Below are positions 75-28,267 of a stretch of DNA of 28,426 nt, one piece after another. Made by a program: the position numbers and the translations under genes. A model generated the notes under the pieces. It saw only the letters and a list, made by a program, of their open reading frames with translations. It ran no database searches and had not been told where the DNA came from. Each line of letters begins with the position of its first letter. Within the stretch, counting starts at the first letter, position 1. Source of the stretch: a virus; the IMG/VR virus record IMGVR_UViG_3300021185_000648, positions 1-28,426 of that record; one strand, given 5' to 3'.

Positions 75-1882
75 ATCACGCCCCCATTGCTGTTCTTAGC
101 TGTGTAAGTGTTAGCACCAAAGTTCAGGTCTAGTGTGGCTATACCGTCTACCTGTGCCTTCAAGCCTGTCTTATTGGCTACAAAAGTCTCAGCCTTAGCT
201 ATCTCTTCGTCTGTGGACTCTGCTGCTCTTAGGATGGTCTGGTACATGTTGCCTCCAACGCACCGTCCATCATTGTCGATGGCCGTAAACAGTTTAATAG
301 TCCCACCAATAGCTTGCTGGTCGTAGGTTGTATCAGAGTATTCCTGAGTGCCATCAATACGAATCTTAGCGTCATCTTCTACTAGGTCGTAGGTCAAGAC
401 TTTTATAACCTCAGCATCAGCATCAAATTCTGACCAAGCCCCATCGTAATAAAGAATAACCCCCTCTTTAACAGCAAACACAGTCCTGCCAGATTGTATG
501 TCTAATAAATATTTACTAGTAGTAGATTCAGCATTAGTAGCACTATAGCCAAACAACGAAGTAATAGGAGTAGAGGAAGATGTCAGGTTATTAATAAACA
601 TTGAATCATCAGTACCATCAAACTTCAGGTAGTACACCTCGCCAACACCTGACTCAGTTACGTCAATGTCTGTTACTACCTTCTGGTAGTTGGAGGCTTC
701 TGCTGCTTCTTCTAGCTGTGCGCCCCAAGCGTAAACCCCATCAGTGCCGTTAGTTGCTCCTGAATAATATCTTGCGGGTTGAGCCTGCTGTATTGTAGCC
801 CAAGCGTAAACCCCATCAGTGCCGTTAGTTGCTCCTGAATAATATCTTGCGGGTTGAGCCTGCTGTATTGTAGAGCCGCTGCCTTGTACGGTTATGCTTA
901 CTCTCCACCACCCGTTTCCTGCATCTTCCACTTCATAACTTGTAGTGCCGGTGCCAGTAATGACACTGCCGTCAGAAAGAGAAATAACTATATATCGGTC
1001 AACGCCAGTGTAAAAGTTATGCCTAACAGTATTGTTTCCAGCCGCTTTATAGTAACAACTAAAAGTAAGGAGGTTACTTGTATTAAAAGTTCGTTTTAAC
1101 CACGAGTTAGTGCTAGTAGCCGAAACTTTGTCTGCGGTAGTTGTACCGTCAGGCGCTATTGTGGCGTTAGCAGTTATGGTTGAACCTTGTTTAGTCCAAT
1201 AACCATTATCAAACTGCTCTGTGTAGTTCAACAGATTCCTAATGCCACCCTCTGGATGTCTTGCGTAGATAGGGCGCTTAGTGGATGTAGGCTGTGTAGC
1301 GTGTGAGCCTTGTATCTCTGTTACTGATACGTTGTCTAAAGACACAACGCCAATTCCAAACTTTTTAAACTGTAGCGTAAACGAAGTTGCTGTTGCTTGA
1401 AGGGTATAAGAATGTCTGCCTTGGCTAGAGGTAACCCCTTGTACATAAACACCTAAAAAGTCATCTATATACCAGCTGGAATCTCCTGAAATGGCTTCTG
1501 TATCTAGTGTTAACTTATAAAACTTACCCACAGTAAGTCCAGAAACACCTTGAAACGCTTGCGCCCCATACGTAGATGTATTTGTTAGATGAGCTGAACC
1601 AGAAACAATAGAAACACTTCCCGAAGTAACCCAGCCAGTTAATCCATTGCTAAAGTCACCATTAGTAATTTCTTCTGGCCCTTGAGCTAATCCCTTAGAC
1701 TTATCCAGCATTAGCCCTACAGGCTCTCCTACTGCTGTTACAGGCGTTAAACCTTGATAGTCTTGGTAGAGGGTATGGCTTGGGAAGGCAGCCTTAAACG
1801 CGTTAGCAAACGTGCTTAGGAGATTGCAAAAACACCACTTCCAGCAGAGTCTGCTGCTTGCGTTATTGAACAGCGATACCAC
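71..1882 (-). CDS. Carbohydrate-binding-like tail protein (frame-disrupted 5' end)
   Basis: A 603-codon frame of Thr/Ser/Gly-rich beta-type sequence typical of phage tail or receptor-binding proteins. Recognisable blocks: a 'TLYQD..G.TPVTAVGEPVGLMLDKSKG' type segment near residue 37, a 'NGDFSNGLTGW' jelly-roll-like module near residue 74, and a second module starting 'RNLLNYTEQFDNGYW' near residue 215, like the one in the upstream gene. The C-terminal third looks like a LamG/concanavalin-type fold by composition. The frame opens with a GTG and its first ~20 residues (Cys/Trp-rich) look like out-of-frame translation of the upstream gene, so the true product probably continues from the upstream frame after a 1-nt frame change. 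It contains a perfect 25-residue tandem duplication. Its stop overlaps the next start (ATGA). Confidence 0.65.
   Translation of the reverse strand: MVSLFNNASSRLCWKWCFCNLLSTFANAFKAAFPSHTLYQDYQGLTPVTAVGEPVGLMLDKSKGLAQGPEEITNGDFSNGLTGWVTSGSVSIVSGSAHLTNTSTYGAQAFQGVSGLTVGKFYKLTLDTEAISGDSSWYIDDFLGVYVQGVTSSQGRHSYTLQATATSFTLQFKKFGIGVVSLDNVSVTEIQGSHATQPTSTKRPIYARHPEGGIRNLLNYTEQFDNGYWTKQGSTITANATIAPDGTTTADKVSATSTNSWLKRTFNTSNLLTFSCYYKAAGNNTVRHNFYTGVDRYIVISLSDGSVITGTGTTSYEVEDAGNGWWRVSITVQGSGSTIQQAQPARYYSGATNGTDGVYAWATIQQAQPARYYSGATNGTDGVYAWGAQLEEAAEASNYQKVVTDIDVTESGVGEVYYLKFDGTDDSMFINNLTSSSTPITSLFGYSATNAESTTSKYLLDIQSGRTVFAVKEGVILYYDGAWSEFDADAEVIKVLTYDLVEDDAKIRIDGTQEYSDTTYDQQAIGGTIKLFTAIDNDGRCVGGNMYQTILRAAESTDEEIAKAETFVANKTGLKAQVDGIATLDLNFGANTYTAKNSNGGVI
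724..873. repeat. 75-bp perfect tandem duplication (2 copies, in frame)
   Basis: Positions 724-798 and 799-873 are identical. The unit is 25 codons, so the tail protein frame stays open and repeats the block that ends '...NGTDGVYAW' twice. The next base on each side differs, so there is no flanking microhomology. See the findings on the six duplications. Confidence 0.97.
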
Positions 1883-2379
1883 CCGTTTCCTACATCTGTA
1901 ATTGAAAACGATGTTGCGGGAAGTGAAGGGCTGTTTGTTGCTGTGCCGTTTTGCAAATCAAAGAATGCTATATAGTTTGTTGAGAAGGCTCCACCAGACA
2001 TATACCGCAAAGCTACCCAGCGTCTTCCCCCTTGCTTCACATAACAACTTGCTGTGTAAGAAGCACCTGCTGTCATTGATATACTGCGACTAGTGTTGTG
2101 ACCAGAATTAGCAGTGTTATCAATTAATTTATCGCCTGTAACACTTCCATCAGGAGCAGCAACAACATTAGGTGTAACTGTAGATTGGAGTTTACTCCAA
2201 TAACTATTATCAAAGCTCTCAGTGTACTCAAGTAAGTTCTTGCGCCAATCAAGCGAGCCTGACGCAGCAGAGGGGTCATACCATACTCCCGCCTCTCCAT
2301 TGTTAAACAGAGACGCAGGGGTAAACTGTAGCCCACCTTTTACAGCAAGCCTTTGCAGATTCATGCCAAGATTTAACAT
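1816..2379 (-). CDS. Carbohydrate-binding-like tail protein, N-terminal part
   Basis: A 187-residue product starting MLNLGMNLQRLAVKGG, then 'SLFNNGEAGVWYDPS' and a carbohydrate-binding-like module ('RKNLLEYTESFDNSYW ... DVGNGWYRCSITQ'). The same module recurs in the downstream frame. In related modules a strand ending near 'YxWGAQLEE' normally follows; here the frame stops at 'GSGVFAIS', in the middle of the expected domain, while the downstream frame opens in the overlap. This suggests a frameshift or a recombination junction joining two related modules. The start is firm: the upstream gene's TAA abuts the ATG. Confidence 0.65.
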   Translation of the reverse strand: MLNLGMNLQRLAVKGGLQFTPASLFNNGEAGVWYDPSAASGSLDWRKNLLEYTESFDNSYWSKLQSTVTPNVVAAPDGSVTGDKLIDNTANSGHNTSRSISMTAGASYTASCYVKQGGRRWVALRYMSGGAFSTNYIAFFDLQNGTATNSPSLPATSFSITDVGNGWYRCSITQAADSAGSGVFAIS

Positions 2380-2652
2380 TTAAACCACCAGTGCGTGAAT
2401 GCCTGTTGCGGTAGTGCCTGATGATAAAACTCGCCCAACAGAACACACAAGATAAAAGTTATCCGGGACGTTAAAAGTTCGGACATTGCCATCCATGTTG
2501 TGAATTGAAACTGAACCGCCTGCCTCAATGTAAAGGCCGATAGCTACGTTATCCTCACCAACATTATCAGTGCTGTTGTTAGGTACTACAGGAAGCATGT
2601 CGTAAACCATGCCGCTTAGTGTTGTTGGTTTGCCGAGAAACGGGTTAGCCAT
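2380..2652 (-). CDS. Spike-base-like small virion protein
   Basis: A 90-residue protein with the pattern of the gene-transfer-agent/phage 'spike base' family: an N-terminal 'P.NNSTDN', a central 'AIGLYIEAGGSVSIHNMDG' strand pair, and a C-terminal 'V..VLSSGTTATGIHAL' segment. The family is thought to sit at the base of a head or tail spike, which fits its place between tail-fibre genes. RBS GGAG lies 9 nt before the ATG. It abuts the next tail gene with no gap. The family assignment is by pattern memory and has not been searched. Confidence 0.6.
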   Translation of the reverse strand: MANPFLGKPTTLSGMVYDMLPVVPNNSTDNVGEDNVAIGLYIEAGGSVSIHNMDGNVRTFNVPDNFYLVCSVGRVLSSGTTATGIHALVV

Positions 2653-2677
2653 GATTATATCTCCAAAATTTGTTTAA

Positions 2678-3502
2678 TTAGTGTCCGATTGCAATGAATC
2701 TGAATAGACGAGAGCTTCCATTGCCGTTAGTCAGGTAATAAGTAGACGTTGTCGGTGATGTAGAGCCTAATCCCCAGTTGTCCCCTTCACTGGCGCTGCT
2801 GACTACGCTTGTTGCAATTACCTGAAAGCATGCTGTCGGGAAAGATGTCGGGAATGAAGTCGCCTTGTTGGTTTGGTTTCCTGAAACAGTAGTGCTGCCC
2901 CACTGGACCATAAGGCCATTAGGAAGGGTAACATAACCGTTAGAAACGGCACTGGTTGTATAGTCAGAGTCTTTTACAAAATCAGACGCTGCAGCTCCCT
3001 GGAATAGGTCTGCGTCCAGTCCGGAGCCAGTCCCATCTACTGTTTTAATCTTCGTTAGGATATCAGCAGCAGTGTAGTCAGCTATAGCCAGCTTCTGATC
3101 TAAAGCACTTTGAAGATAATCGACATTACCAATTGTATGGCTATGGCTATCATCAACAACTGTCGCGGTTATGCTAACACTTGCGCTACCGTCAAAAGAC
3201 ACAGTACCAGTAACATCGCCAGTCAAACTTATGTCAACCGCAGACGCCAGGGCTGAGGCTGTAGAGGCGTTGCCAGATATAGCGCCTGTAGCACTTATAG
3301 TCGTAAAAGCACCAGTAGAGGCAGCGTTGGCGCCAATAGGAGTGCCATCAATTGAGCCGCTGTTTATATCAATGCCAGTTATCGGGACATCGCCACCCAA
3401 AAGGTCATCGACTTTTTCAGTGTTTCCATTTAAGTCGGCTCCCCATGTATTTAGGCTTGCACCTACGGTAGGGGTAGCGAATGAGTAATTAGTTGTTGCC
3501 AT
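2678..3502 (-). CDS. Tail fibre protein with gp53-like C-terminal domain
   Basis: A 274-residue fibre. Residues 1-40 (NYSFATPTVGASLNTWGADLN) resemble an N-terminal attachment segment common in phage fibres. Residues 45-180 are a low-complexity Ser/Thr/Ala repeat shaft with 'LDQKLAIADYTAADILTKIKTVDG' like other fibre shafts. Residues 189-274 match the gp53-like fibre tip ('GYVTLPNGLMVQWGS ... SFPTSFPTACFQV'), a trimeric receptor-contact domain. A longer reading starts 5 codons earlier, but the ATG at 3502 has GGAGAG 7 nt upstream and overlaps the adaptor stop (TAATG), so I chose it. It probably binds the host surface. Confidence 0.85.
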   Translation of the reverse strand: MATTNYSFATPTVGASLNTWGADLNGNTEKVDDLLGGDVPITGIDINSGSIDGTPIGANAASTGAFTTISATGAISGNASTASALASAVDISLTGDVTGTVSFDGSASVSITATVVDDSHSHTIGNVDYLQSALDQKLAIADYTAADILTKIKTVDGTGSGLDADLFQGAAASDFVKDSDYTTSAVSNGYVTLPNGLMVQWGSTTVSGNQTNKATSFPTSFPTACFQVIATSVVSSASEGDNWGLGSTSPTTSTYYLTNGNGSSRLFRFIAIGH

Positions 3503-4410
3503 TATCTGTCTCTCCAATAGTTGGCTGATCGCCCGGTGTCTAGGCCTTTAACTCGCATACCTAAGCCAGACCCTGAGTATTTCGCAGATTCCGACTCTTC
3601 ATTAAGTCTAAGAACTGCGGCACTGTATAGCTGAGCCCATACGCCAATTCGCTCATCATTAGCCAGGTAAGGGGCAGACTGTAAGAGAGACCCGTAAAGG
3701 TATACATCGGGCGCGGCGCTTAAAAGCCAGTTAGTTGGCGCACTGTCTTGCTGTGAAGTCTGCGACTGAAACGGTGTTAGCGTACTTCCGAATTGCGCAT
3801 AAAATGCTTCAGGAGTATATCTGGTAATTGCCGCGTCACCGATAACCCCAAAAAGAGATCCGTCAACAAGGTACTCACCAGTAGCGCTATCATACGAATA
3901 TACATGATGTACTGGGCCATTGGCTCCTACCAAAGCGTTAGCCAGGGACAGCGCATTAATGTTTGTGAGGTCGTAATCCTGACCAAAAAACACACTTGCC
4001 CCAAGTGAAGGGACTCTTGCTAAGTAAACGTATGTAGCAGACTCTGCTTGATCAGGGGAGGGCCAAACTTCAATGTCTTGCCCGGTGTTCTTATAGTAGC
4101 GAGGGCTTCCGGCAGTGTTTCCGCTGTTTGACCTGCGCTCATTCATTGCTGAGGTGCTTAACAACTCAAGATTGTTAGCTGATCCACCATCAAGAGTGAT
4201 ACTTACAGTTTCAACCCAATTAATAGGTCTTAATGTATACCGCCCCTCGATGCTTAACGTGGCCACGGTCTCCATTTGATAATGCCTGACATCTCGATTA
4301 ATCTGGGCTTCAGCCAGGTCAATAAATGTCGGAATCACAGATGCCAAATCTTCCCGGTTTAAAAAGTCCGCGATGCTCGATTGTAACTCTGCGTAGGTTG
4401 TTAATGCCAT
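3502..4410 (-). CDS. SU10-type head-tail adaptor with a large insertion
   Basis: The 302-residue product opens with the hallmark of the SU10 adaptor family, 'TTYAEL..SIADFLNR.DL...IP.FI.LAEA.INRD.R', and keeps 'P.NW.E', 'LARVPSLG' (~131-137) and 'TNWLLSAAPDVYLYGSLLQSAPYL' (~226-249). Adaptors form a ring between portal and tail. Family members are usually near 200-220 residues; in them the 'ARxP' strand is followed almost at once by 'xTNWLL'. Here about 86 residues (~138-223, including 'GQDYDLTNINALSLANAL') separate the two, so an extra domain seems to be inserted. RBS GGAG is 7 nt before the ATG. The gene has its own promoter-like motif just upstream. Confidence 0.88.
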   Translation of the reverse strand: MALTTYAELQSSIADFLNREDLASVIPTFIDLAEAQINRDVRHYQMETVATLSIEGRYTLRPINWVETVSITLDGGSANNLELLSTSAMNERRSNSGNTAGSPRYYKNTGQDIEVWPSPDQAESATYVYLARVPSLGASVFFGQDYDLTNINALSLANALVGANGPVHHVYSYDSATGEYLVDGSLFGVIGDAAITRYTPEAFYAQFGSTLTPFQSQTSQQDSAPTNWLLSAAPDVYLYGSLLQSAPYLANDERIGVWAQLYSAAVLRLNEESESAKYSGSGLGMRVKGLDTGRSANYWRDR

Positions 4411-4443: not shown

Positions 4444-7104
4444 TTAAATTGGACTTAACATGGACAATATACCAGCAGTAGTCATACCAGCCCTTCTAAG
4501 GCGCTCTGCCTCCTCAGCCATTCTAGGGTCAAGGTATATTTGTTCTGGCCTTAGAGGTGCTTTAGCTTCTTCTGGAGCCATCATTGCGTCCCTGTTTATA
4601 TCCTCGTACTGCTGAGAGGCGTAAGCAGGGGCTGTCACATATCCGCCCCCAGAGAATGTATCCTTCAAGTAATCTACGCCGCCTTCGCCAACGCCAGACG
4701 CGAACTGCAACAAAGACGGTAACGCGTTAGCTTTAGTAAATTCTTGAAGCTCTGGGCTTGCAGGGCTGCCTCTCCTGTCTCTACGGCTCATTCCAGCTCT
4801 ATCTGAGCGCTCTGCCATCAGCAGGCCAAACTTCTTATCGTCTGCTGCATCTGCATCTAAAGGCAAAATGCTGGCGCCTATCCCTACGCCGGCTGGACCA
4901 TGCACCCTATCTTTGAATCCTCGAAGCTTAATTGCATTAGGAGACGGCCTTCCTTCAGGGTATAAGATGTCCTCTACCTTATTGTAATTTTCCGCCCCCA
5001 TTTTTTCATGCACCTCCCTAAGCAACTTGGAGTCCCTGGCATTCCACATATGCGCACCATCCATAGATAGATATGTGGAAGGCACTAGCTTGTTGCCGCT
5101 TATCTCTTCAGCAGCATCATACATTTCACCTGCCAGACCCTGCCTGCGGTAACCTGGGTCAATCTCAGTATTTAGCGAGGACATATAACCCTCATCAAAT
5201 CCAGAGTCAATGGCGTAATCTGTTTTTAAAGAACCAATGCTTTTAGTGTCGCCGTCCTTCCGCAAAAAATATTCCCCGACTCGACTATCTTCAGGATCAA
5301 TCAAATCTACTAACTCCATACCGCGAGCTGCAAGCTTAGCAACAGACGCATCAGCATCTTCACTACCAAGCACTCCCGCGCCAAGCAATCCAGCAGTAGC
5401 TACAGGGGCAGCCTGGCGTATGACTGCGCTGCCATAGACTGGATGTTTTTTGCCTCGAACATCAATCTCACCAATCTGCTCACCTAGCTCTACAAACCCT
5501 TTCCTGGTTGGGCGAAGTCTTGGTTCAGATGCAGATTTCTCATATCTTGCCAGGTCAACTCCATCAGGGAATTGCGCATCAACCGTATAGTAATGATTTT
5601 TACCATCCTGCACCGAAACAATAGGGAAGTTGCCTGCCGGTTCTGGGTCATAACCCTCTGGAACTTGACTCCACTTCCATCCTGCTTTTTTCTTAAAAAG
5701 GTTGGTCTTAATTTTTCGCCCTTCATTTGGTGGAGTGCCAGAGCGCTGCTCACCCGCAACTTGGAACTTTGGCTTACCGTCTGGGCCAACAGATATGTTA
5801 GCAGAAGCAGGGTATTGACCAGTTATGTCAACAGGGCCATTCTCACCCATCTCTAGGTATCGACCGCCAGGCTGCTGCTCAAACTCACTTAAAAAAGGCT
5901 TAAAGTCTTTGCTGTTAGGGTCAAACATTCTTTGAGGCGCAGGAAATACATCTTTAAAGGCAGCTTTGGTGCCAGATACTACACCAGCATCAGCATCTTC
6001 ACTACCGAGCAAAGACGCGCCAGCAACGCCAGCAGTCGCAACACCAGGAAGAAGGCCGCTGTTAACCTTAAAGCCCTCTTCGCTTAGTCTTCGGAGTAGA
6101 GCCTCATCAATTAAGCCACCCCAGTAACCAACCTCCATAGCCCTTCTTGGAGCAAATCTGGTAGACAGTAAGTCTGGACCTTGAGGGCCGGTATCAAAGG
6201 TTCCATCTTTCTTCAATGCTCTGGCATACCGCTCGGGGTTTAAATCCATAGCAGTGACATCAGTATCGAGAGTTCCTAAATAATCTCCAGCTAAGCCAGA
6301 AGGATACGTTGCGTTCCCGCCACCCTCAAGGACACCACGCTGTAAGTCTACTTCACCGACATTCTGAAACCCACTAACGGGAGATAGGAGCTGAGACTGA
6401 TCAGAAACTGCTAATCTGGCCTGAGTCTGAGAGATACCGCCCTTGTTGCGATACTCTTTGTCTAACATGTTCATGGCAGTTTTTCTCTGCGTGTCAGACA
6501 GAGCGCCATACTGCTCAAGACTTTTAGGGTCGTCTACCCCAGCCCAATCAGGAACAAACTTCTTCATGTCAGCATCTAGCTGCTTTTTGTAGACTTTTGG
6601 CATGTTGCCTGCCGCCCAGGACAGCATCGTCTGGCCAGTCATGTGAGCAAAGTCACCCCCACTAGGAGCCATTCTCCAAGGCATAAAGACAGGAGAGGAG
6701 CCGTACTGGTCTTCCAGTTCCTTGGCAGCCTTTACCATGTTAGGCACAACGCCTGCGCCAGAAGCCCACAGCTCACCAGTGTCATCACGCATGTAATCTT
6801 GTCCGCCAGTTAAGCGGATAGGATGAGCAAGGGGCTTGTTACCGATGCCTTCAAGCAAACCGCCAGCAGCAGTTCTGTCAGACATTGTTGTAAAGTATGG
6901 CCTTCCCTCTAGGTCTTGTAGAGCAATGCGCTCTTGAGGGATCATGGTGCCTGTGTCGATTACATTAGCGCGATATTCAGGGGAATCTTTGACTCTCAGC
7001 TTGCCACCCGGATAGAATCTAGGGTCAAACTCAGCTCTGTCATACTTGGCATCTTTAATTGTCTCGGCAACAAAGTCCATAATGCCTTTAATTCTTCCAG
7101 CCAT
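4444..7104 (-). CDS. Large multidomain (polyvalent-type) virion protein
   Basis: An 886-residue protein next to terminase and adaptor. Residues ~137-235 ('FMPWRMAPSGGDFAHMTGQTMLSWAAGN' onward) form a helical domain I associate with phage polyvalent or internal proteins. Three Gly/Ala hydrophobic segments, each followed by an acidic 'DADA' motif, divide it: ~351-373 (GSEDADAG), ~565-587 (GSEDADAS) and ~737-756 (LDADAAD). Residues ~605-700 look like a GNAT-type acetyltransferase: 'EIDPGYRRQGLAGEMYDAAEE' carries the R-x-x-G-x-A acetyl-CoA loop. Such proteins are thought to ride in the capsid and be injected with DNA. Neither catalytic activity nor cleavage at the acidic motifs can be shown here. 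Confidence 0.65.
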   Translation of the reverse strand: MAGRIKGIMDFVAETIKDAKYDRAEFDPRFYPGGKLRVKDSPEYRANVIDTGTMIPQERIALQDLEGRPYFTTMSDRTAAGGLLEGIGNKPLAHPIRLTGGQDYMRDDTGELWASGAGVVPNMVKAAKELEDQYGSSPVFMPWRMAPSGGDFAHMTGQTMLSWAAGNMPKVYKKQLDADMKKFVPDWAGVDDPKSLEQYGALSDTQRKTAMNMLDKEYRNKGGISQTQARLAVSDQSQLLSPVSGFQNVGEVDLQRGVLEGGGNATYPSGLAGDYLGTLDTDVTAMDLNPERYARALKKDGTFDTGPQGPDLLSTRFAPRRAMEVGYWGGLIDEALLRRLSEEGFKVNSGLLPGVATAGVAGASLLGSEDADAGVVSGTKAAFKDVFPAPQRMFDPNSKDFKPFLSEFEQQPGGRYLEMGENGPVDITGQYPASANISVGPDGKPKFQVAGEQRSGTPPNEGRKIKTNLFKKKAGWKWSQVPEGYDPEPAGNFPIVSVQDGKNHYYTVDAQFPDGVDLARYEKSASEPRLRPTRKGFVELGEQIGEIDVRGKKHPVYGSAVIRQAAPVATAGLLGAGVLGSEDADASVAKLAARGMELVDLIDPEDSRVGEYFLRKDGDTKSIGSLKTDYAIDSGFDEGYMSSLNTEIDPGYRRQGLAGEMYDAAEEISGNKLVPSTYLSMDGAHMWNARDSKLLREVHEKMGAENYNKVEDILYPEGRPSPNAIKLRGFKDRVHGPAGVGIGASILPLDADAADDKKFGLLMAERSDRAGMSRRDRRGSPASPELQEFTKANALPSLLQFASGVGEGGVDYLKDTFSGGGYVTAPAYASQQYEDINRDAMMAPEEAKAPLRPEQIYLDPRMAEEAERLRRAGMTTAGILSMLSPI

Positions 7105-9504: not shown

Positions 9505-10300
9505 TTGCCTTCGTACTCCGATTTTAAGTAGGGCAAACTAATAGGCATCTCATCAAACTGCCCATGCTCGTCTACCTCGTTAAACATCCAAATACCCCTC
9601 CAGCTATTGTTTGTCTGAGGGTTTAAATAATCTTGATCTTCAGTATAGAATATCCCGGCAAACACGCCAGTCATTCGCTTACCGTCAGCCCTCTTAGCAA
9701 ATGCAATCTGCCTGTCTTGAACATGGCCCATACATGTACTCATATGTAGCTTGTTCAGCATAAGCTGCGCAGATGATACAGGACGACCCATTACGCCTGA
9801 GCAGTGGTAATGCCCATTACGCCTGAGCAGTGGTAATGAGAGTAGCAAATTCCATCGATTACAACAGGCTCTAAGAATCCATAAACCTCCCAGCCCATCT
9901 CCTGAAGCATCAGATCCTGAAATCCTATCAACCCCTCTAGCTTAGGGTCATCGTTAATAGCTCGCGCTATACGGTTCTCGTGATTACCAAGAGTAAACAC
10001 CATGCGAGGGTTCCAGCGTTTATCTTTGTTTCTAACAAGCCTTCGCCTCTCTTCAATAATAGGCTCAAGGAATATCCTCATAGCGTCTAAGCCAGAGTTT
10101 ACATCGTCAACGTAGCGCCTGCCCTCAAAAAGCTTTTTTCCGACATCAAAGCTTGAAAGGCTGGGCATGTCCCAGTGGTCCCCCGCGTGAACAATAACGT
10201 CAGGTTTCTTTTCTGCTGCATACAAGCCAGCCCAGCGAAGATGTTCAAAGTCTTGGCCGGGCTTGCACTGCGTGTCTGGGATGATTAAATGTCTTGCCAT
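9501..10300 (-). pseudogene. Calcineurin-like metallophosphoesterase split by a 26-bp duplication
   Basis: Two frames together make one metallophosphoesterase. The N-terminal part, from ATG 10300 (GGAG 7 nt upstream), shows metal motifs PDTQ (D9, Q11), GDHWD (D41, D44), GNHE (N106, H107) and SHYH (H155, H157). It then enters a 26-bp tandem duplication (9787-9838), shifts frame and stops near 9791. The C-terminal part, with the last metal motif GHVQ, lies in the other frame and ends at 9501. Removing one 26-bp copy gives an uninterrupted 257-residue protein (774 nt = 258 codons). As written, the product lacks the final metal ligand and should be inactive. Family members are probable phosphodiesterases/DNA-repair-type phosphatases. 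Either a real mutation or an assembly error. Confidence 0.88.
9787..9838. repeat. 26-bp perfect tandem duplication (2 copies, frameshifting)
   Basis: Positions 9787-9812 and 9813-9838 are identical. 26 is not a multiple of 3, so the metallophosphoesterase frame is broken; deletion of one copy repairs it exactly. Confidence 0.97.
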
Positions 10301-10339: not shown

Positions 10340-10696
10340 CTATTTTGACAATAACTCCATAACCTGCCTTTCCTGCTCCGGCGTCACCCAAATACTAATC
10401 TCAGTTAGCCCTTCAGTTTTTCTGCGCTCACGCATGTCACGCATCATCTGAGCCTTGTCCTTTGGCTTCTTCTCTTTGTTTCTAAATATGGCGTCAAAGT
10501 TCGACTCAAACTTTTCCCGGTTAGGCATTGGCCTGGGGTCAGTTAGCCCCTCAGTTTTTCTGCGCTCACGCATGTCACGCATCATCTGAGCCTTGTCCTT
10601 TGGCTTCTTCTCTTTGTTTCTAAATATGGCGTCAAAGTTCGACTCAAACTTTTCCCGGTTAGGCATTGGCCTGGGGGCTGATCCTTTACCATTCAT
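10340..10696 (-). CDS. Small charged phage protein with 46-residue internal duplication
   Basis: A 118-residue basic protein. The opening MNGKGSAPRPMPN.EKFESNFDAIF matches a small phage protein often seen as 'MNGKGS.PRP....F..N.D.IF'; its function is unknown. Residues from 'PRPMPNREKF' to 'KTEGLT' are repeated back to back, so the normal protein would be about 72 residues, ending 'ISIWVTPEQERQVMELLSK'. I chose the ATG at 10696, which overlaps the upstream TGA (ATGA) and has GGAG 9 nt upstream, rather than the ATG 5 codons earlier. Confidence 0.75.
   Translation of the reverse strand: MNGKGSAPRPMPNREKFESNFDAIFRNKEKKPKDKAQMMRDMRERRKTEGLTDPRPMPNREKFESNFDAIFRNKEKKPKDKAQMMRDMRERRKTEGLTEISIWVTPEQERQVMELLSK
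10401..10676. repeat. 138-bp tandem duplication, one mismatch, in frame
   Basis: Positions 10401-10538 and 10539-10676 are identical except for one base (T at 10412, C at 10550; a synonymous change). The unit is 46 codons. It is the only one of the six duplications with a difference between copies. Confidence 0.97.
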
Positions 10697-11428: not shown

Positions 11429-11674
11429 TTATATTGCTTCGATGCGCTGACGGCCTAAATCTTTATACATTCTGTCGGTTAAGTCATTGCCAAGGTCAAC
11501 AGTTCGCATAACGTCTGGGCGGTCTGTGTATTCTGCGCCTTCGGATATTGATTTAGTTACTGTAAATTCAATCACGCCGTTATAAATGCTAGTAATGATT
11601 CCTTCAATGTAGCAATCAGTTCGTGAGATGAAGTCATAAGATCGGATGTTTTGGCCGATTTGAAAGTTAGTCAT
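11429..11674 (-). CDS. Hypothetical protein, 81 aa
   Basis: An 81-residue protein starting MTNFQIGQNIRSYDFISRTD; the 'IGQ.IRSYDF..RTDCYIEG.I' pattern looks like a conserved small phage protein with a beta-barrel-like N-terminus. Function unknown. The frame extends 14 codons upstream, but that stretch contains the -10 box, so the ATG at 11674 is the start. It is the first gene after the 11.7-kb promoter, with a leader of about 25 nt. Confidence 0.75.
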   Translation of the reverse strand: MTNFQIGQNIRSYDFISRTDCYIEGIITSIYNGVIEFTVTKSISEGAEYTDRPDVMRTVDLGNDLTDRMYKDLGRQRIEAI

Positions 11675-11707
11675 TTTGTAAATCCCGCTCTTGGTTAGTG
11701 TGGGTCT

Positions 11708-13222: not shown

Positions 13223-13590
13223 TATAATTTAACCTTTAACCACTTATTTGAAAGTATTTCAGATTTGCTTTCACACCTGTTGATCTGCAGCGCTCTATTT
13301 CTATCAGTTTTGTTAGCTTGTTTTGGCTTAGCAAACGCCCTTTCTTGCGGTGTCCTTAACGTAAATCGGGTGACCACCCACTCAGATCCATCTTTTTTAT
13401 CAATGTTTTCATCTCTTAACCTGGTCCTCAAAGATTCTTGCTTTATTCCTGTTGCAGCGGATATACATTTGTAGCTGTAGCGATTGCCGCTAACAAAACC
13501 AAGATAACTATCTCCAACATATTTAAACCAATGCCTTTTGCGATCATTGTGAGCATTCTTCTTAGGTTGATAAAAATTAGTGTTCTTCAT
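13222..13590 (-). CDS. Hypothetical basic protein, 122 aa
   Basis: A Lys/Arg-rich protein. Residues ~45-70 ('SYKCISAATGIKQESLRTRLRD') suggest a helix-turn-helix-like segment; a 'FTLRTPQERAFAKPKQ' stretch follows. Not recognised. It starts by ATGA overlap with the replication protein, so the upstream in-frame MGI start is not used. DNA-binding is an inference from charge and the helical segment. Confidence 0.65.
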   Translation of the reverse strand: MKNTNFYQPKKNAHNDRKRHWFKYVGDSYLGFVSGNRYSYKCISAATGIKQESLRTRLRDENIDKKDGSEWVVTRFTLRTPQERAFAKPKQANKTDRNRALQINRCESKSEILSNKWLKVKL

Positions 13591-14276: not shown

Positions 14277-14281
14277 ATTTT

Positions 14282-16665: not shown

Positions 16666-16950
16666 ATGAAGAAAAAAGATAGCAAACTTACAAACGCAGG
16701 CGTAAGTGCTTACAATAAGCCAAAGCGCACTCCCGGTCACAAGACCAAAAGCCACGTTGTCGTAGCAAAAGAGAATGGGAAGACAAAAACCATTCGATTT
16801 GGGCAGCAGGGCGTGTCTGGATCACCCAAGAAAAAAGGCGAATCAGAAGCATCTGCAGCAAGACGCAAGTCATTTAAGGCCCGGCACAGTAGCAACATAG
16901 AAAAAGGCAAGATGTCAGCGGCTTACTGGTCAAATAAAACCAAATGGTAG
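16666..16950 (+). CDS. DUF6321-like basic protein
   Basis: A 94-residue Lys-rich protein: 'NKPKRTPGHKTKSHVVVAKENGKTKTIRFGQQGVSGSPKKKGES....RKSFKARHSSNIEKGKMSAAYWSNKTKW'. This matches a small basic family seen in many phage genomes (I recall it as DUF6321). Unknown role; charge suggests nucleic-acid contact. A longer frame exists upstream, but the ATG at 16666 follows the promoter and terminator, so the upstream part is not coding. Confidence 0.8.
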   Translation: MKKKDSKLTNAGVSAYNKPKRTPGHKTKSHVVVAKENGKTKTIRFGQQGVSGSPKKKGESEASAARRKSFKARHSSNIEKGKMSAAYWSNKTKW

Positions 16951-16959
16951 GAGCAGGTT

Positions 16960-17070: not shown

Positions 17071-17462
17071 TAACACCATGACACTGGCGTGGTATCTCGA
17101 ATATCTAGATGCACAAACGACTTGTGAACACCGATGCCGCTAAACCCTAAAGCATATGCGTGACGCTGTATTTCATAGCGCTGAGAGCCGTTTAGAGCCC
17201 TTATATCCGCAGCTATACCTTTGGTTAGAGCCCTTATATCCGCAGCTATACCTTTGGTATGACTTCCTCCTCCATTTGCCTTAGATCGCTCTAGGGAGTG
17301 GTTTAGCGACCTGTAACCGCTGGTAACCACAAAAGGAAACCCGCAAACGTGACGCAGGTGGTCTAGCTTGTACAAAAACTCCATATCCATCTCATTCTCG
17401 CCAGTCTCCTGGCAGTCAAAGTCAGACAGCTTAAAATACTTTAAAGGCTTCTTGTCAGTCAT
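17067..17462 (-). CDS. Peptidase M15 endolysin-like protein with duplicated zinc motif
   Basis: A 131-residue M15A peptidase (D-Ala-D-Ala carboxypeptidase-like or L-Ala-D-Glu-type endolysin), which cuts cell-wall peptide. Motifs: 'VVTSGYRSLNHSLERSKANGGGSHTKGIAAD' gives H68 and D75 as zinc ligands, and 'GIGVHKSFVHLDIRD' gives H118 and catalytic-region D120. An 11-residue in-frame duplication (TKGIAADIRAL twice, residues ~69-90) inserts a second copy of most of the zinc motif, which may disturb the active site. ATG 17462 overlaps the upstream TGA by one base. No signal peptide, so a holin is needed. Confidence 0.88.
   Translation of the reverse strand: MTDKKPLKYFKLSDFDCQETGENEMDMEFLYKLDHLRHVCGFPFVVTSGYRSLNHSLERSKANGGGSHTKGIAADIRALTKGIAADIRALNGSQRYEIQRHAYALGFSGIGVHKSFVHLDIRDTTPVSWCY
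17192..17258. repeat. 33-bp perfect tandem duplication (2 copies, in frame)
   Basis: Positions 17192-17224 and 17225-17257 are identical, with one extra matching base at 17258. The unit is 11 codons and repeats the zinc-motif segment of the M15 peptidase. Confidence 0.97.
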
Positions 17463-17758: not shown

Positions 17759-17788
17759 CGTAATCTCCATTGCTGATACTTGGTGTAC

Positions 17789-17816
17789 ATAAAAAAGGAG
17801 GGCCGAAGCCCCCCTT
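17789..17816 (-). terminator. Terminator after the major capsid gene
   Basis: Minus strand AAGGGGGGC-TTCG-GCCCTCCTT (9-bp stem, one G-T pair, UUCG loop) followed by a T-run. It is a strong hairpin placed directly after the MCP stop, able to end or attenuate transcription and protect the capsid mRNA 3' end. Confidence 0.88.
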
Positions 17817-17839
17817 AATTCTAACCTATCTAGCAATTA

Positions 17840-18787
17840 TCAGCTAGTAGTCAGATCAGCTACGATACCACTTGCAGCTTCGTTCTTAGACACAAGAGTC
17901 AGCTCGGTAAGGATCTGACGCATGGTAGAGTCGCCAGTCTTAGCCAGTGCAACGCTCTTAGTCGGACGCAGTACGCCAGCGCAGAACATATCGTTCTGAA
18001 GGATGTAAACGTCACGCGAACGGTTCTCACGGCTAGGAACAAACTCTACAGTACCCCAAGGAGTAACGTAAACGTCCAAAGACTTAACAACTTTAGCATC
18101 GCCTGCCTGAACAGTAGAGCGCTGGTTGTTGTTGCCGTTAAAGCCAAGTGCCTTGTTCATCTGGAAAGGAGACAGGTAAACACGATCAGGATCGCCACCA
18201 TTAGTCCAGATTTGCTCCATTACAGAATCAAACTTAGCCTGGTCAAATGCTCGCTGAGTACCGTCAGTACGCTTGTTAGTACCATCGCCAGCCGGAGCTG
18301 AGCCACCAGTGCCTTTAGATTCGTTAGATTTGATCCAAGATCCAAGACCAGCTAGTTTACGAGCAACAGTAGCGGAGCCAGCAACGCGCTCTTGGTTCTC
18401 AAACAAAGCTTTCTCGATGTCTAGCTTCTGCTGACGAGCTTCTTTAAGCATTTGGTAAGCCATTTCTTGCTTACGTCCTGCCTTCAGTACGCCTTCTTCA
18501 GTATCAGCGATAACAACAGCGTTCTTAAAGATCTGAGTGTAGTTGCCCAGGCGAGTGGTAGCGGTAACTGCATCAGCAGTAGTATCGCCGCCTTCAATGT
18601 GAGCGTTTACAGCAGAGTTGCGCAACGAGTCGGTCTGCCATTCGTGCAGAGTGTTAGTTGCCTTTACTTTCTTACAAGCAGTGTAAAACGGGGTGTCATC
18701 AGGGGTAACTGAGTAGATAATATCGCTCAGGTCTTCGCGGATGCCCTTGGCATCATAAGTGTCAAAAGTGTTAGTAGGCTGTGCCAT
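17840..18787 (-). CDS. Major capsid protein, SU10 type
   Basis: A 315-residue capsid protein of the SU10 major head family (DUF5309): 'NTFDTYDAKGIREDLSDIIYSVTPDDTPFYTACKK', 'EWQTDSL', 'GNYTQIFKNAVVIADTEEGV', 'YQMLKEARQQKLDIEKALFEN', 'VYLSPFQMNKALGF' and a C-terminal 'VVKSLDVYVTPWGTVEFVPSR' are characteristic. It forms the icosahedral shell with the scaffold encoded just upstream (gap 11 nt). RBS AAGGA is 8 nt before the ATG. Followed by a strong terminator. Confidence 0.93.
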   Translation of the reverse strand: MAQPTNTFDTYDAKGIREDLSDIIYSVTPDDTPFYTACKKVKATNTLHEWQTDSLRNSAVNAHIEGGDTTADAVTATTRLGNYTQIFKNAVVIADTEEGVLKAGRKQEMAYQMLKEARQQKLDIEKALFENQERVAGSATVARKLAGLGSWIKSNESKGTGGSAPAGDGTNKRTDGTQRAFDQAKFDSVMEQIWTNGGDPDRVYLSPFQMNKALGFNGNNNQRSTVQAGDAKVVKSLDVYVTPWGTVEFVPSRENRSRDVYILQNDMFCAGVLRPTKSVALAKTGDSTMRQILTELTLVSKNEAASGIVADLTTS

Positions 18788-19842: not shown

Positions 19843-20081
19843 GGTGCTGTTTCCTTCTGCTTTTTGTCGTAGATCGCTTCGTCTGTAAATACAGTGTTGA
19901 ATTGATCTTCAATCAAATTAAGCGCCTTAATTATATCATGGGCGCCCTTAATAGTCTCTATTTGAGACTGGCTGTTCAGGAAGACAGAGGACTGCCTATC
20001 CCGAATAATTTGCAAGATTTCCTGAAAGGTTTCATCTCGACTTAAATTTCTGGCTCGTGCAGCCTTATCTTTTATATTCAA
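19821..20081 (-). CDS. Hypothetical head-operon protein, 86 aa
   Basis: An 86-residue helical protein (MNIKDKAARARNLSRDETFQEILQIIRDRQSS...) between portal and scaffold, resembling small conserved proteins at that position in related phages; function unknown. It starts at TTG overlapping the portal's TGA, with GGCGG upstream. It ends inside the scaffold gene start. Confidence 0.75.
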   Translation of the reverse strand: MNIKDKAARARNLSRDETFQEILQIIRDRQSSVFLNSQSQIETIKGAHDIIKALNLIEDQFNTVFTDEAIYDKKQKETAPWKRLKL

Positions 20082-22071
20082 AATCTACCGCCGGTTACAG
20101 CTTGAACCGGAGTGCTGTCTGGGTATCTAGGTGCAGCTTGCTCGGCCTTAATTCGTGCTGTGTCTACTGCTGTGCCGTACTTGCCCAGTATCTCAGCCGC
20201 GTCGACCAATAGGTCTTGATCCATCTGATCACGCTCGCGGTCATCATTGGTTGCTTCTGACCTTGTTGCTGTTGTTGTTGCTGCTGTTGAATCTGCTGCT
20301 CAATCTGCATATCCATAGGCATAAAGTATCGCTCGGCGTTGGTAAGACCATTAATGGCCAGCATATCGGCCAAAGTGTTTCTTATTTGCGTCATTCCGAC
20401 CAAACCGTTTCCTATACCATACGTTTGGAATACCTGCATTTGCACTTGCAGTGCCTGCTGTAAAGCGGCCATTTTTTCGCCATCTTGGCCAGTTCCAAGC
20501 CCGACATTGATTCTAACGTCCATAGCCTTGTCCCACGACCGGGGATCTATAGGCTCATACTGCCCACCCGTAACGCGCATAATTGTGGCTTCGTCACAGT
20601 TCTCAACAACAAGTTTAAGCATCAATCTGAACAACTGAGTCATTCCGCCTTCAGCAAGGTTTCTGGCCATGATCTCAATTTGATCATCTCCACCCTGCCT
20701 AGCAGCCATAATAGCTGTTGCTGTGCTTGCCTGGAGTACGTCCGGGTCTAGACCCATACTGGCCTTTGATATTCCGACCTTGTTTTGAATCTCTTGATCG
20801 TAATATTGAATAGCAGTTAAGGTTTGCCCGGCGACAAAAGGAACTGACTGTGGAGTAATCGCGCCAGCTTGCTTGGTACGGATGATCCCGCCAATCTCGT
20901 TATTTAGCAGGTCGTCAATGTTAACCTGGCCATCAATAATTTCTGTACGAGGATTGTTAGTGAGAGCAATGTTATCAAGTACGCCTCGAAGCAATGCCGT
21001 GGCACTGTCCTGGTCGTTAAGTATTAAGTCTGCAACAGAGTTGCCATAGAATGTATGTGGCTCAGGATCGACCTCAAATACTGCAAATGGCAGGTGGCCC
21101 CAAAGCTCCATATCTAACAGGTGGTAATTATCTCCACCCATAGTCAGCTTGTACATTTGGGGAATGCCAGTACCGTCAACGTCCATCTTCATATAGCACT
21201 CGGTAATCATAACCAGGCGCATACTAGGGTCAGCGTCATCGTTGTCGTTGTAGTCGTCCATGTAACCTGTGCGCTCAAACTCTTCCATATCAGAGAAGGT
21301 AGAAGATTGCGAAGAATCTCCAAGCTCTGCTACTTCATCAAAGTCAAAGCCCATCTCAACCAGGTCGCCAACGCGCATGTCTGTTCTGTGGCATACAGCG
21401 TAAGCGTCTTCCAGCGATTTAGCATTTGAATCAACAAAAAACTCTTCTGGCGGGACGCTTTCAAGCTTCAGGCTGCCCATCTCCTTGGTACGCATAATCT
21501 TTAAATCGTGCCGTGGAGACTCAACCTCAAGCCCCATCTGGTCCAACTCAATCTCAATGCGCGTAGTATGCTCTATAACTTCAACACCCTCGTCATTTAC
21601 AATAGCAGTAAATTCCATATCGTTAAGGTTATCAAAGCTGTAAGTCTCTGCTTCTTCTGAAGTATCCCAGTAAGACTTAATAATACCGTTCTTCTTCAGT
21701 AGGGCATCGTGTATGGCGTCATACAGCACTCTGTAGCCATTTAACTCGTTAAACTTGTAGTTGACGTACTTGGTAGCTTGCTCGGCAAATGGGACATCCT
21801 GGGGCTTCTCAGGGATATACTCGACAGCCCGGTCAGTTTGCAGGAACACTCTCATCAGGCTGGGCTTAATAGCTCGGATTGCATCACGCACTTTTGTAGA
21901 TACAACGCTGGACCGACCTTCCTCCTGGCCAATGTCCACGTTACCCTCGTAATAGCGTTGCGACTTCAGTCGGCTAAAAGCAATCTCAGACTCTACAAAA
22001 TCAACACAGTCCTCAATGGCGCTTCGAGCAATGTTCTGGATCTCATCTTTCTCTAAAGGCTTTAATTCCAC
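20078..22071 (-). CDS. Portal protein with C-terminal frame change
   Basis: A portal of about 664 residues. Supporting features: N-terminal 'FVESEIAFSRLKSQRYYEG', 'RSSVVSTKVRDAIRAIKPSLMRVF', 'GVLDNIALTNNPRTEI', 'IGGIIRTKQAG', 'LDPDVLQASTATAIMAARQ' and a C-terminal Gln-rich tract. It forms the dodecameric DNA channel. I chose GTG 22071, with AGGAGA upstream and just after the previous stop; an upstream GTG at 22113 would overlap the previous gene. The straight frame ends at 20164 with a Trp/Arg-rich tail; the -1 frame instead gives 'NDDRERDQMDQDLLVDAAEI', 'LGKYGTAVDTARIKAEQAAP' and a stop at 20078 next to the following gene, clearly the true C-terminus. One base is missing or the ribosome shifts. 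Confidence 0.88.
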
Positions 22072-22072
22072 G

Positions 22073-23962
22073 TTACAATCTCTCCTGTCCGAATTGAGCG
22101 CCTTGTTGCGCACCTGCTACTCCTGACCCTCGCGTAAACCCAGCAGCCAGAGTTTCCGCTCTTTTGATGAGCTTTGCAAGTACGGTTTTGTCAGTCAACG
22201 CTTGAGCTACTAATTCAGGGTTTTCAGAATATAAAATCCGCCCCACCTCTGCCATTTGCTGCTGACTTAATCCTTGAGCCGAAGGAATGCTTGCAGATAC
22301 AAGCTTAATAATGGCCATCGGATCGCCCTGAGTTGCCCTAAGCATGTCTTCCGCAGAATTACCGCTACCGCGCAACTCCTGTTCTCTTATCAATCCCGCA
22401 GTCGGTGACCCGGAAGTAGGTTGGATAAACTTGTCCATTTCTGAAGCTTCAGCAGCTCGACCAACTCTAGCTAGAACATCAGGAGCCTGACCCTCTGGCA
22501 ATAAAACTCGAAGTGCAGCTCCAACTTGAACGTCTTCTTTAGCCAAGTCTCGAAGAAGAACTCCAGATCGCCTTGCTCTATTTCTTAGCGCATCCATTGA
22601 TCCCGCCCTAAATGCCGACAAAGCCTCTCCTTTTAAAGACGCCATAACAATTTCTAGCTCATCAACATTCATGGTTAAAGCTTTTTTGCGCCCTTCATCA
22701 AACGCCTTGTTCGCATCCATCATCTGGCTGTATTTTTGCCGTACCGCAGCCAAGTCAGGAGATTCTAAATTAATTGCTTGCCGCAAAGGAGCCTCAGTAC
22801 CACTAAGCGCTTCTCCAACAGACCCTTCACCAGCTCGGAACCTGGCACTAGCCTCTTCTCCAATGTTCCTGCGAAGTATCTCAGCGTCCTCTAAGTTAGG
22901 CTTTCTGACAAAAACAATAGCGCCATTCGGCTCTTCTTTAAACAGAGGCACTAAGTTTCTAATCCTATAAAGCTCATCTAGCTTTGATTTTGCAGTAGGA
23001 ACGCTTTGAATAATGTTAAGCATTTGAGCCTCTACCTCTGGACTCACAGATGGAGAAGATGCAAAAATCTCATCATATGCGCCGCCTTGCTCTTTTTTAA
23101 GCTCATCTTCCTGCAGTCTGCGAGCCCTCAAAACATTGGGGTCACCCACTTCTGGAGCTAACGCGCCTCTTAAAGATTCAGTTGCCTCCGACCCGGTTGA
23201 TGCTCGCCTGGCGCTACTAGCAGCTAAAATTTCAGCCCTGGTTAAACCGCCTTCTTGCACCATTGACTTAATCGCAAGTCCAAGCGTCTTGTTGTCTGCT
23301 ATGACTCGACCGGAAGCAACATCTGCAATAATCTCATCAATTGACTTGCCTGTACCTTCCGCAAGCCTGCGTAGCTCAGCTTGCACAGCAGTATCCGCCC
23401 CGCCCATATTTTTTCGGACAAAACTGATAAGTTTAGAGCTAAGCTTGCCAAACTGTCCAAGTGCAACTTCCGACCCGACACCAAGAGCAGTTCCTACGCC
23501 AGTTCCCACGACAACGTCTTTGGCTCCTGTCTCAAAATCATCTGCCTCAGAATATCCGGCAGAGCTTACTAAAGCTTCTCCTGCGCCTCTTGTAGCTATG
23601 CTTCTAAGGTTTTGACCAGCGGCCACTCTAGATCCAGGAACAGGCGCTATAGCCATTACGATAGATGGCAAAAATGCTCCCGCTAATTCAGCAGACAACG
23701 CAGCCCCTGGATTTTGCTCAGCATAGTCAGATAGCTTGCGTCTTAGCTCATCTCTCACTTCAGTGTACTTACCGCCACCCATTGATTCAGGAACAACAGC
23801 GCGAACCGCAGCTTCAATCTCGTCTGCAAATCCAAAAGTTGCCCCTTGAGCAAAGGTTCTTCCAAGCTGGCTTTCAGCCGGAACTTGTCCTTGGGCTGCA
23901 GGTGCAGCAGAAACATCTTGAGATTGCCTAGCTGCTCGAATTGCATCTAAAGCTTGACTCAT
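22073..23962 (-). CDS. Internal virion (ejection-type) protein, 629 aa
   Basis: An Ala-rich, largely helical protein. 'LGRTFAQGATFGFADEIEAAVRA' near residue 33 is a pattern common in phage internal or injected proteins, and two Gly/Ala-rich hydrophobic stretches (about 85-110 and 147-168) could insert in membranes. 'AILRRNIGEEASARFRAGEG' and 'AAVRQKYSQMMDANKAFDEGRKKAL' suggest coiled domains. It lies next to the portal and other internal proteins, so a role in DNA ejection is likely but inferred. ATGA overlap with the upstream gene. Confidence 0.7.
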   Translation of the reverse strand: MSQALDAIRAARQSQDVSAAPAAQGQVPAESQLGRTFAQGATFGFADEIEAAVRAVVPESMGGGKYTEVRDELRRKLSDYAEQNPGAALSAELAGAFLPSIVMAIAPVPGSRVAAGQNLRSIATRGAGEALVSSAGYSEADDFETGAKDVVVGTGVGTALGVGSEVALGQFGKLSSKLISFVRKNMGGADTAVQAELRRLAEGTGKSIDEIIADVASGRVIADNKTLGLAIKSMVQEGGLTRAEILAASSARRASTGSEATESLRGALAPEVGDPNVLRARRLQEDELKKEQGGAYDEIFASSPSVSPEVEAQMLNIIQSVPTAKSKLDELYRIRNLVPLFKEEPNGAIVFVRKPNLEDAEILRRNIGEEASARFRAGEGSVGEALSGTEAPLRQAINLESPDLAAVRQKYSQMMDANKAFDEGRKKALTMNVDELEIVMASLKGEALSAFRAGSMDALRNRARRSGVLLRDLAKEDVQVGAALRVLLPEGQAPDVLARVGRAAEASEMDKFIQPTSGSPTAGLIREQELRGSGNSAEDMLRATQGDPMAIIKLVSASIPSAQGLSQQQMAEVGRILYSENPELVAQALTDKTVLAKLIKRAETLAAGFTRGSGVAGAQQGAQFGQERL

Positions 23963-25259
23963 AACAAACCCTCACCTTTCATTATTGATTCGCGCTCTTC
24001 TAAGTTAAAGGTTTCCCACTCAGCTTTTGTAAGGTCAGGAATAGCTTTTTGAAGCTTACTAAAAGATTTGTCAGCCGCATCGTGGCGCTTTCTATTATCG
24101 ATCTTGTACTCAGCGTATGCATTTAATCCAGATCCGCCAAGGAGCATCTGTACTTCAGGCATCAATGCGTTGCGCAGCTTGGTTTGAGCAGCTATTTTGT
24201 CTTGAATATACTTTACTAAAGCATCACCTGTTAGGTTTTGATCAAAGCCAGTAGATAATGCAAGCCGAAGCTCTGTAGCACTTAGCGCTCCAAAAGTAGC
24301 GGAATTGATAATATCAATACCCATTTTATTGGCAATTTGACGCAACTCGGTAGTTGCAGCATCTGTAGATGGAATAAATTTTGTAAGAAATCCAGTTTTT
24401 GCACCCTCATCGACTAAATCTCCAATACGCCTAAAGTCTTGTATTTGACGGTCAATAAGATTGAATTGATCAAATATTTCTTCGCCTTTCTTTAAGCCTT
24501 GGGTAAGATCAGAGGTTGCTCGCGTTTGAGCAAGAAGAGCAGCGTTCTTTTCTGCTTCAGTTGGGCCAAAGGCGCCAGGTATATCTGTTCTTGTAATATC
24601 TCCAGTGTTGGGGTTTTGTTCAACAGTAAACATCTGCCCCGTATCTTGGTCAACCTGTACACCACCAACGGTTTTACGCATAAATCCGCCAGCTTTCGAT
24701 GTAGCCAATCCTTTTAAGACTTCTGCAGCCATTGTGGGGTTTGACTCAACCAGGTCGGCTAAATCATCGCGCCCCTGCGCCCGAAGATACTCAACAGTTT
24801 TGTTAGCTTGCTTAGTGGCCGATCTTACAGCCATCATGTCACTAGCGCGTTGCTGCAGAGCCTGATTCGGATTTAATGTCATCGAGTCAAACGCAGCAGA
24901 CAAACCAGCAAGGGTTGTAGGGTCTTTTAAAGAAGTCCCGAGGCGAGACAAAAAGCCCGGAGGCTTTGGTGCTTCGGGCGCTCTTTGGGGCTGCTGGCTT
25001 GCAGGGATTAAAGGAGACATCTGTGGTTGCGACATTACATCCTGTCCTGCTCGCCCCATAGCGTTAGCGTTGCTGAGTATTCCCGGAACATCTTGAGAGG
25101 TTACAGGCATAGGGGAGGACCGCCCATAGCGTTAGCGTTGCTGAGTATTCCCGGAACATCTTGAGAGGTTACAGGCATAGGGGAGGACCGCTGAAGCATC
25201 GCCTCATCAGCACGTTTTTGTCTTTCTCTGTCAATTAAGCTATCAAGTATTCCAGCCAT
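23959..25259 (-). pseudogene. Internal virion protein gene split by a 68-bp duplication
   Basis: The open frame that starts at 25110 (MPVTSQDVPGILSNANAMGR, 383 residues) is only part of the gene. Upstream, an ATG at 25259 opens MAGILDSLIDRERQKRADEA and runs into the second copy of the same MPVTSQ segment, then shifts frame in the 68-bp tandem repeat and stops. Removing one copy joins them into a 410-residue protein (1233 nt = 411 codons). The body is helical, with 'FGALSATELRLALSTGFDQNLTG' like other phage internal proteins. Because ATG 25110 lies in the inner copy, a 383-residue product may still be made, but no Shine-Dalgarno is evident for it. Confidence 0.78.
25055..25191. repeat. 68-bp perfect tandem duplication (2 copies, frameshifting)
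   Basis: Positions 25055-25122 and 25123-25190 are identical, with one more matching base at 25191. 68 is not a multiple of 3, so the host gene's frame is broken at its 5' end. Confidence 0.97.
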
Positions 25260-27143: not shown

Positions 27144-27144
27144 C

Positions 27145-27510: not shown

Positions 27511-27528
27511 TCAAACACCTTTTATAAT

Positions 27529-27542
27529 GCCTGATTATACCA
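27529..27542 (-). promoter_or_regulatory. Extended -10 promoter TGGTATAATCAGGC
   Basis: Minus strand TGGTATAAT plus CAGGC in the 33-bp gap between the split tail gene and the 121-residue gene, giving a leader of about 18 nt with the RBS. No clear -35. Same motif set as the other four sites. Confidence 0.6.
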
Positions 27543-27543
27543 C

Positions 27544-28267
27544 TTATTGCCTTGATCTGGTGATACTAATGCGAACAGCTTCCGATGAAGGCGCAAAAGA
27601 CGTAGCAGCAGCCGCATCTAGCCATAAATCAGTGTCATCAGTAGCCCAGTATAAGTTTATGTAATCGCCAGCAGAGAGGCTTACCTGGTCTGTAATAGCC
27701 AGCAGAGAATAAGCGTTGTTATTGTGTAAAGTTAAACGCTCAGAGTGATCTACGGCAACACCGTTTACCGCAAGCCAATAGTACATAGTTTTGCTGGCGG
27801 CGCTGCTGCTTTTTATTTGAACATGTCCTGTAATTGAATACACACCCGCTTCAGCAAAATCTATCTTAGTGCTATCGTTAACGTCTAGGCTTAACCCACC
27901 ATTCGCAGAGGAAATGTTAAAAGGAATTTTGTAGCCAGTGTTTACCGTCTAGGCTTAACCCACCATTCGCAGAGGAAATGTTAAAAGGAATTTTGTAGCC
28001 AGTGTTTACAGCAGCAGCAGTTAAAGTTACAGAAGATGCAAACTCTCCATATCCGTCAGCCAGGACGATTTGACGCCACTGATCATCTTTAGAAACGACT
28101 GGATACCCGGTGCGGTCCCATAAAATAACACCATCCTCCTGAGCTGTATCGCCAGCAACATAAAAAGCCAGCTTAGACTTAGTCCGAACCAGAAAGTCGT
28201 TTAGCCTTTCAGACCAGCGCCTGTATTCAGTTCTACCTGCAGACGGTGGCCTTTCAGCTAAGCTCAT
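27544..28267 (-). pseudogene. Tail/neck protein gene split by a 64-bp duplication
   Basis: The 5' frame (ATG 28267, MSLAERPPSAGRTEYRRWSE, 116 codons) ends within a 64-bp tandem duplication; the 3' frame (to 27544) continues as a beta-rich C1q-like or jelly-roll segment 'VYSITGHVQIKSSSAASKTMYYWLAVNG'. Removing one copy gives a 219-residue protein (660 nt) joined at 'GGLSLDVNDSTKIDFAEAGV'. The N-terminal part has 'ILWDRTGYPVVSKDDQWRQIVLADG', seen in phage structural proteins. As written it makes two fragments; the second has an ATG but no clear RBS. It overlaps the upstream gene (ATGA). Confidence 0.82.
27882..28009. repeat. 64-bp perfect tandem duplication (2 copies, frameshifting)
   Basis: Positions 27882-27945 and 27946-28009 are identical. 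64 is not a multiple of 3, so the tail/neck gene is split. Confidence 0.97.

Follow-up and report, generated by a model that had tools for sequence, protein, structure and literature searches.

Gene content and relatives of the phage contig

We analysed the complete IMG/VR virus record IMGVR_UViG_3300021185_000648, a stretch of 28,426 bases that is here called the window and that contains no N. Its gene matches are those of a tailed phage with a portal protein and a major capsid protein of the SU10 type and a Terminase_3 large subunit. Among the first matches listed for the terminase protein was that of a Paracoccus phage (53.5% identity over 96%), with two further records counted at 60-80% identity, and among those listed first for the portal protein was that of an Octadecabacter virus (48.9% over 91%). 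A megablast search with the first 25,000 bases of the window matched no phage record.

For the comparisons, we used a dataset of 236 fetched loci totalling 2,349,551 bases (2.35 Mb), several of which overlap or come from one contig. Protein scans supplied contigs that share about 95-99% DNA identity with the window over long stretches, as well as more distant ones. One of these scans contributed the best 80 of 232 relatives and another the best 80 of at least 589, some of the loci being only distant relatives. The closest relatives differ from the window by roughly 1-5%, and the identity of individual segments to relatives shifts along the window. Copy number was scored as the length between flanking anchors in each fetched locus that aligned across a site. 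Loci were collapsed by contig name, and in the resulting counts contigs that share a sample or a reassembly may be non-independent.

Tandem duplications and deletions in the window

The window contains six two-copy tandem duplications and two joins at which bases present in related contigs are missing (Table 1). These eight lesions range in size from +138 to -112 bp.

Table 1. Positions of the eight lesions, the genes that they affect and the homology at their junctions
Lesion	Position	Gene context	Reading frame	Junction homology
75-bp unit, two exact copies	724-873	tail-protein ORF 71-1882 (-)	in frame, +25 aa	0 nt
26-bp unit, two exact copies	9787-9838	metallophosphoesterase-like ORF	out of frame	0 nt
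138-bp unit, two copies with one mismatch	10401-10676	77-aa ORF, 123 aa in the window	in frame	0 nt
33-bp unit, two exact copies plus 1 nt	17192-17258	M15-peptidase/endolysin-like ORF	in frame, 125-126 aa to 137 aa	1 nt
68-bp unit, two exact copies plus 1 nt	25055-25191	5' end of 411-412-aa ORF broken	out of frame	1 nt
64-bp unit, two exact copies	27882-28009	219-aa ORF split	out of frame	0 nt
103-bp deletion join	20249-20251 (at 20250)	SU10-type portal ORF 20164-22113 (-), C-terminus altered	out of frame	1 nt (ambiguous)
112-bp deletion join	1820-1822 (at 1821)	frame break between ORFs 1816-2379 and 71-1882 (-)	out of frame	1 nt (ambiguous)

A previous reading of the window from its letters alone (the sequence-only reading) had described the six duplications as five perfect units and one with a single mismatch, flanked by 0-1 nt of homology, and all six were confirmed here. 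The mismatch sits in the 138-bp pair, with T at position 10412 and C at 10550, and the base at this site is C in all six aligned relatives. In total, the two copies of the six pairs match at 403 of 404 positions. TRF placed the start of the 64-bp repeat at 27878, which adds one mismatch and a TTA that matches by chance; the placement in Table 1 is the exact one. By eye, three of the six duplicated units open with CCCA on the + strand, a possible base preference at the junctions.

The statement of the same reading that nothing else in the window is repeated in this manner was nearly right, the qualification being that TRF lists further short or imperfect arrays and that a 7-bp unit is doubled at 14286-14299. 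Under a single rule for near-exact tandem repeats with periods of 20-299, we counted six in the 28,426 bases of the window versus five in the 236 fetched loci, an excess with a Poisson probability of about 6e-11 from those counts. These five background repeats are located in four of the loci and every one of their periods is a multiple of three, whereas three of the six in the window are not. An earlier and looser scan of the first 95 fetched loci had yielded three repeats, again all multiples of three.

Copy number in related contigs

At five of the six duplication sites, every fetched contig that aligned across the site carried a single copy and the window was longer by exactly one unit. This was the case in 11 of 11 contigs (14 loci) for the 26-bp unit, 7 of 7 (9 loci) for the 138-bp unit, 8 of 8 (16 loci) for the 33-bp unit and 4 of 4 (7 loci) for each of the 68-bp and 64-bp units. 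The comparison with relatives that the sequence-only reading had proposed thus found the duplicated form in none of the contigs aligning across these five sites. No fetched contig aligned across the 75-bp site at the DNA level. The spacing between conserved protein motifs there is 58 aa in the window versus 27-44 aa in the 6 loci that have the motif pair, while the matches in L097 and L098 lie in the preceding, similar domain; the shorter spacing in relatives weakly suggests a single copy at this site.

The two deletions belong to the same size class as the duplications and could not have been seen from the window alone. At 20250, all 15 contigs aligned (25 loci) have extra bases, namely 103 in 8 contigs, 106 in 5 and 109 in 2, lengths that differ by multiples of three so that the frame is kept among the relatives. 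At 1821, the one contig aligned at the DNA level, the close relative L098, has 112 bases more than the window, and at the protein level the net difference was 130 in L097 and 112 in L098.

We also searched a viral contig collection for the exact junctions of three of the eight lesions. The 138-, 75- and 103-bp joins gave no match in this search, outside which very near records may fall. The search is weak for the 138-bp junction, since a 22-mer of the unit was found, besides the window's own locus L001, only in L084 and L114, which represent one contig. As a control for the 103-bp junction, the undeleted form was present in five loci from three contigs, whereas the 75-bp search had no such control.

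Disruption of reading frames

Five of the eight lesions are out of frame, namely the 26-, 68- and 64-bp duplications and both deletions, and five genes are accordingly split or altered at one end in the window while their frames are open in the relatives compared. The 26-bp duplication divides the metallophosphoesterase-like ORF into 182 and 115 aa; in relatives this protein has 270 or 287 aa, with a complete frame in five loci and an open-ended one in L084. Damage from the 68-bp duplication falls at the start of an ORF that is a single frame in four relative loci, and the 64-bp duplication leaves ORFs of 116 and 99 aa where four relative loci have one frame. The sequence-only reading had noted that dropping one copy restores a single frame of sensible length, and at all three sites this matches the single frames of the relatives. 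The portal gene is a single frame of 698-712 aa in five relative loci, and the frames across 1821 are open in L097 and L098. The genes altered by the out-of-frame lesions, the portal gene among them, are presumably essential. A microhomology-mediated duplication in a viable phage would be expected to leave essential genes intact; in the window, the portal gene and four other ORFs are altered or split.

Homology at the junctions and small indels

The homology at all eight junctions is 0-1 nt, as compared to a mean of 0.71 nt for random joins in the window sequence, and the probability that eight random joins would all have at most 1 nt is 0.23. The unit boundaries thus carry microhomology at the random level only. 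Likewise, five of eight out-of-frame lesions is the number expected without selection.

The three in-frame units of 75, 138 and 33 bp could conceivably have arisen by natural repeat expansion and have been kept by selection. Such an origin would fit the variability of the tail-protein ORF around the 75-bp repeat among relatives and the fact that the five natural repeats in the fetched loci are all in frame. However, near-exactness and random-level homology are common to the in-frame and the out-of-frame units, and both the 33-bp and the 138-bp unit are single in every contig aligned, making selected expansion an extremely improbable source of these three units.

In comparisons with L084, L093 and L083, the small indels were mutually cancelling pairs or groups, changes at 17771-17841 (the window being like L084 and L083 there), an in-frame difference of 6 bp at 25980 where it agrees with L093, and the 7-bp duplication, which was the only private uncompensated small indel found against these three loci. 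Ordinary mutation does not look like the source of several larger random joins when small indels private to the window are almost absent.

Probable origin of the lesions

The eight lesions are most likely assembly errors in one record, in which adjacent contigs from the genome of an ordinary SU10-type marine phage would have been joined at the wrong spacing. Neighbouring contigs would have been set end to end with their overlap unchecked and the gap between them unfilled. Where the contig ends truly overlapped, the overlap would have been written twice, giving the six duplications, and where a short stretch lay between the ends it would have been lost, giving the deletions of 103 and 112 bp. 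The near-identity of the duplicate copies may be explained by both contig ends having been built from the same reads. We infer this joining step from the lesions themselves, their absence in the aligned fetched relatives, the random character of homology and frame, and the near-identity of the copies. As expected of wrong spacing, the errors have both signs, they depend neither on homology nor on frame, and the duplicated form is missing in relatives, if weakly so for the 75-bp site. The sequence-only reading had left the choice between repeated insertion of duplicated segments by the assembly and a phage population that often undergoes tandem duplication. Assembly error is supported by the single copy at five of six sites, the like-sized private deletions, the random-looking joins and the broken frames, whereas the second option received no support, given that no fetched contig has a duplicated form, that homology is at the random level and that the portal gene is damaged.

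Several observations count against assembly error. There are no N or gap marks at the joins, which would therefore have to have been made without the usual filler; in our judgement, such marks are common at joins yet not required, since gaps can be closed or dropped. The six testable breakpoints lie outside strain-divergent stretches, whereas such stretches are one kind of site at which metagenome contigs would be expected to end. A real duplication followed by mutation could account for the T at 10412. Close relatives at the DNA level are lacking across the 75-bp duplication, and across the 112-bp deletion there is a single one. No second record with a like pattern was present among the 236 fetched loci, and any record with the same junctions could have gone unseen because very near records may fall outside the searches.

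Joins between strains in a mosaic assembly were considered, rejected and given no weight. Segment identities do change along the window, but the degree of divergence is highly uneven throughout. None of six relatives showed a raised SNP density close to the breakpoints that could be tested (six of the eight, with two to six per relative), and in one of them, L005, it was lower (0.017 tail).

The lesions could instead be real DNA, belonging to a variant of the phage that may be defective and of low abundance and that acquired them by homology-independent end joining or template switching. The six duplications and two deletions do exist in the record, the record is free of N, and the derived base in one of the 138-bp copies fits a mutation after duplication. 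Against this stand the five broken genes, including the portal gene, with frames that are open in relatives, the lack of any duplicated fetched contig or of an exact match to the three junctions searched, and the 7-bp duplication as the sole private uncompensated small indel against L084, L093 and L083. The junction homology of 0-1 nt also contrasts with the typically 6-10 bp of microhomology described in the account of tandem amplifications in phage T4 (PMC9391042). A real variant thus seems very improbable, and a real marine phage lineage or defective subpopulation in which segments of about 25-140 bp are often duplicated and deleted independently of homology, as by an end-joining mutator, more improbable still.

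When little template is amplified, direct joins between nearby sites and deletions can form, and chimeric molecules from library preparation or whole-genome amplification (such as MDA), if assembled as genuine, would also explain joins without N. Chimeras of this kind are usually inverted and use short homology, in contrast to the random-level homology seen here; nine inverted repeats with a length of at least 18 nt were reported in the window, and their arms are 1,310 nt or more apart. A chimera would moreover have to make up most of the reads at each of eight places. We regard this origin as unlikely.

Comparison with published assembly errors and phage amplifications

Overlapping scaffold contigs, negative gaps, end-to-end placement and false duplication are treated in passages of PMC2864568, PMC9516828, PMC5368935, PMC8849508 and PMC4177539. 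In the duplicated overlapping contigs described in PMC2864568, the terminal sequence of a contig recurs at the beginning of the following one while the genome has the segment once, as proposed here. The cases in that account differ in that they concern separate contigs in diploid vertebrate assemblies with divergent haplotypes, whereas the window is one gapless phage contig with nearly identical copies. The same account states that a duplication is seldom false if both copies lie in a single contig, since reads had to support the path, which counts against assembly error. The negative-gap scaffolds of PMC5368935, PMC8849508 and PMC4177539 resemble the proposed situation in that adjacent contigs overlap and programs either merge them or place them end to end; neither this record nor its pipeline is described in the relevant passages, and here no N is left.

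The segmental amplifications of T4, as presented in PMC9391042, are likewise tandem direct duplications with deletions elsewhere in the phage genome. However, the T4 units carry a selected locus, whereas the units in the window are 26-138 bp long, have at most 1 nt of homology and in several cases disrupt genes. No report of the exact pattern was among the matches listed in our literature search, an absence that does not show it to be unreported.

If the lesions are assembly errors, the finding points to no new phage biology and is an ordinary data error. The record then provides a clear example of a public virus contig with a number of duplications, deletions and split genes that are probably false but with no N as a warning. 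Scanning for clustered exact two-copy repeats that are out of frame and lack homology at their junctions could identify such records before they are used to infer gene counts or phage evolution.

Other differences along the window

Additional differences from the relatives were noted that are distinct from the eight lesions. The doubled 7-bp unit, CATACAA, lies at the start of ORF 13587-14288 and is single in L084 and L093 (two contigs checked); it could be due to ordinary slippage. A segment of 262 bp with a small ORF (11433-11694) is absent from L084, while L004 has 241 non-aligning bp in its place, and this looks like a natural spot of gene presence and absence, which we did not count as a lesion. 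One-base differences from L004 at 11414, 11421 and 11875 were dismissed since L084 agrees with the window. ORF 3502-4410 has about 77-86 residues more than its homologues, in frame, at 3750-4003 (differences near 3700-3800); no repeated DNA was found there and the segment looks like a domain insertion.

A 57-bp repeat with 79% identity occurs at 5348-5404 and 5987-6043, 639 bp apart, and L007 is without the intervening stretch, as if recombined across the repeat. Opposite 16704-16862 and 16948-16950, L093 has about 160 bp missing and about 70 bp extra compared to both the window and L084; these positions were rejected as lesions of the window since L084 agrees with it. The alignment of L083 ends at 16948, and this locus may share the form of L093. 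Position 17771 was rejected as a variable spot, where the window is like L084 and L083 but not like L093, L085 and L082. We also considered whether single N letters in L005 and L070 mark joins of the wrong size and rejected this, since the closest relatives of these loci, L002 and L072 respectively, align across them without a gap. Compared to a small number of more distant loci (three rows for each difference), the window shows a net difference of -22 at about 16950-16957 (near 17000) and of +1 at 19852-19854 (near 19900), the latter on the strand opposite the called genes.
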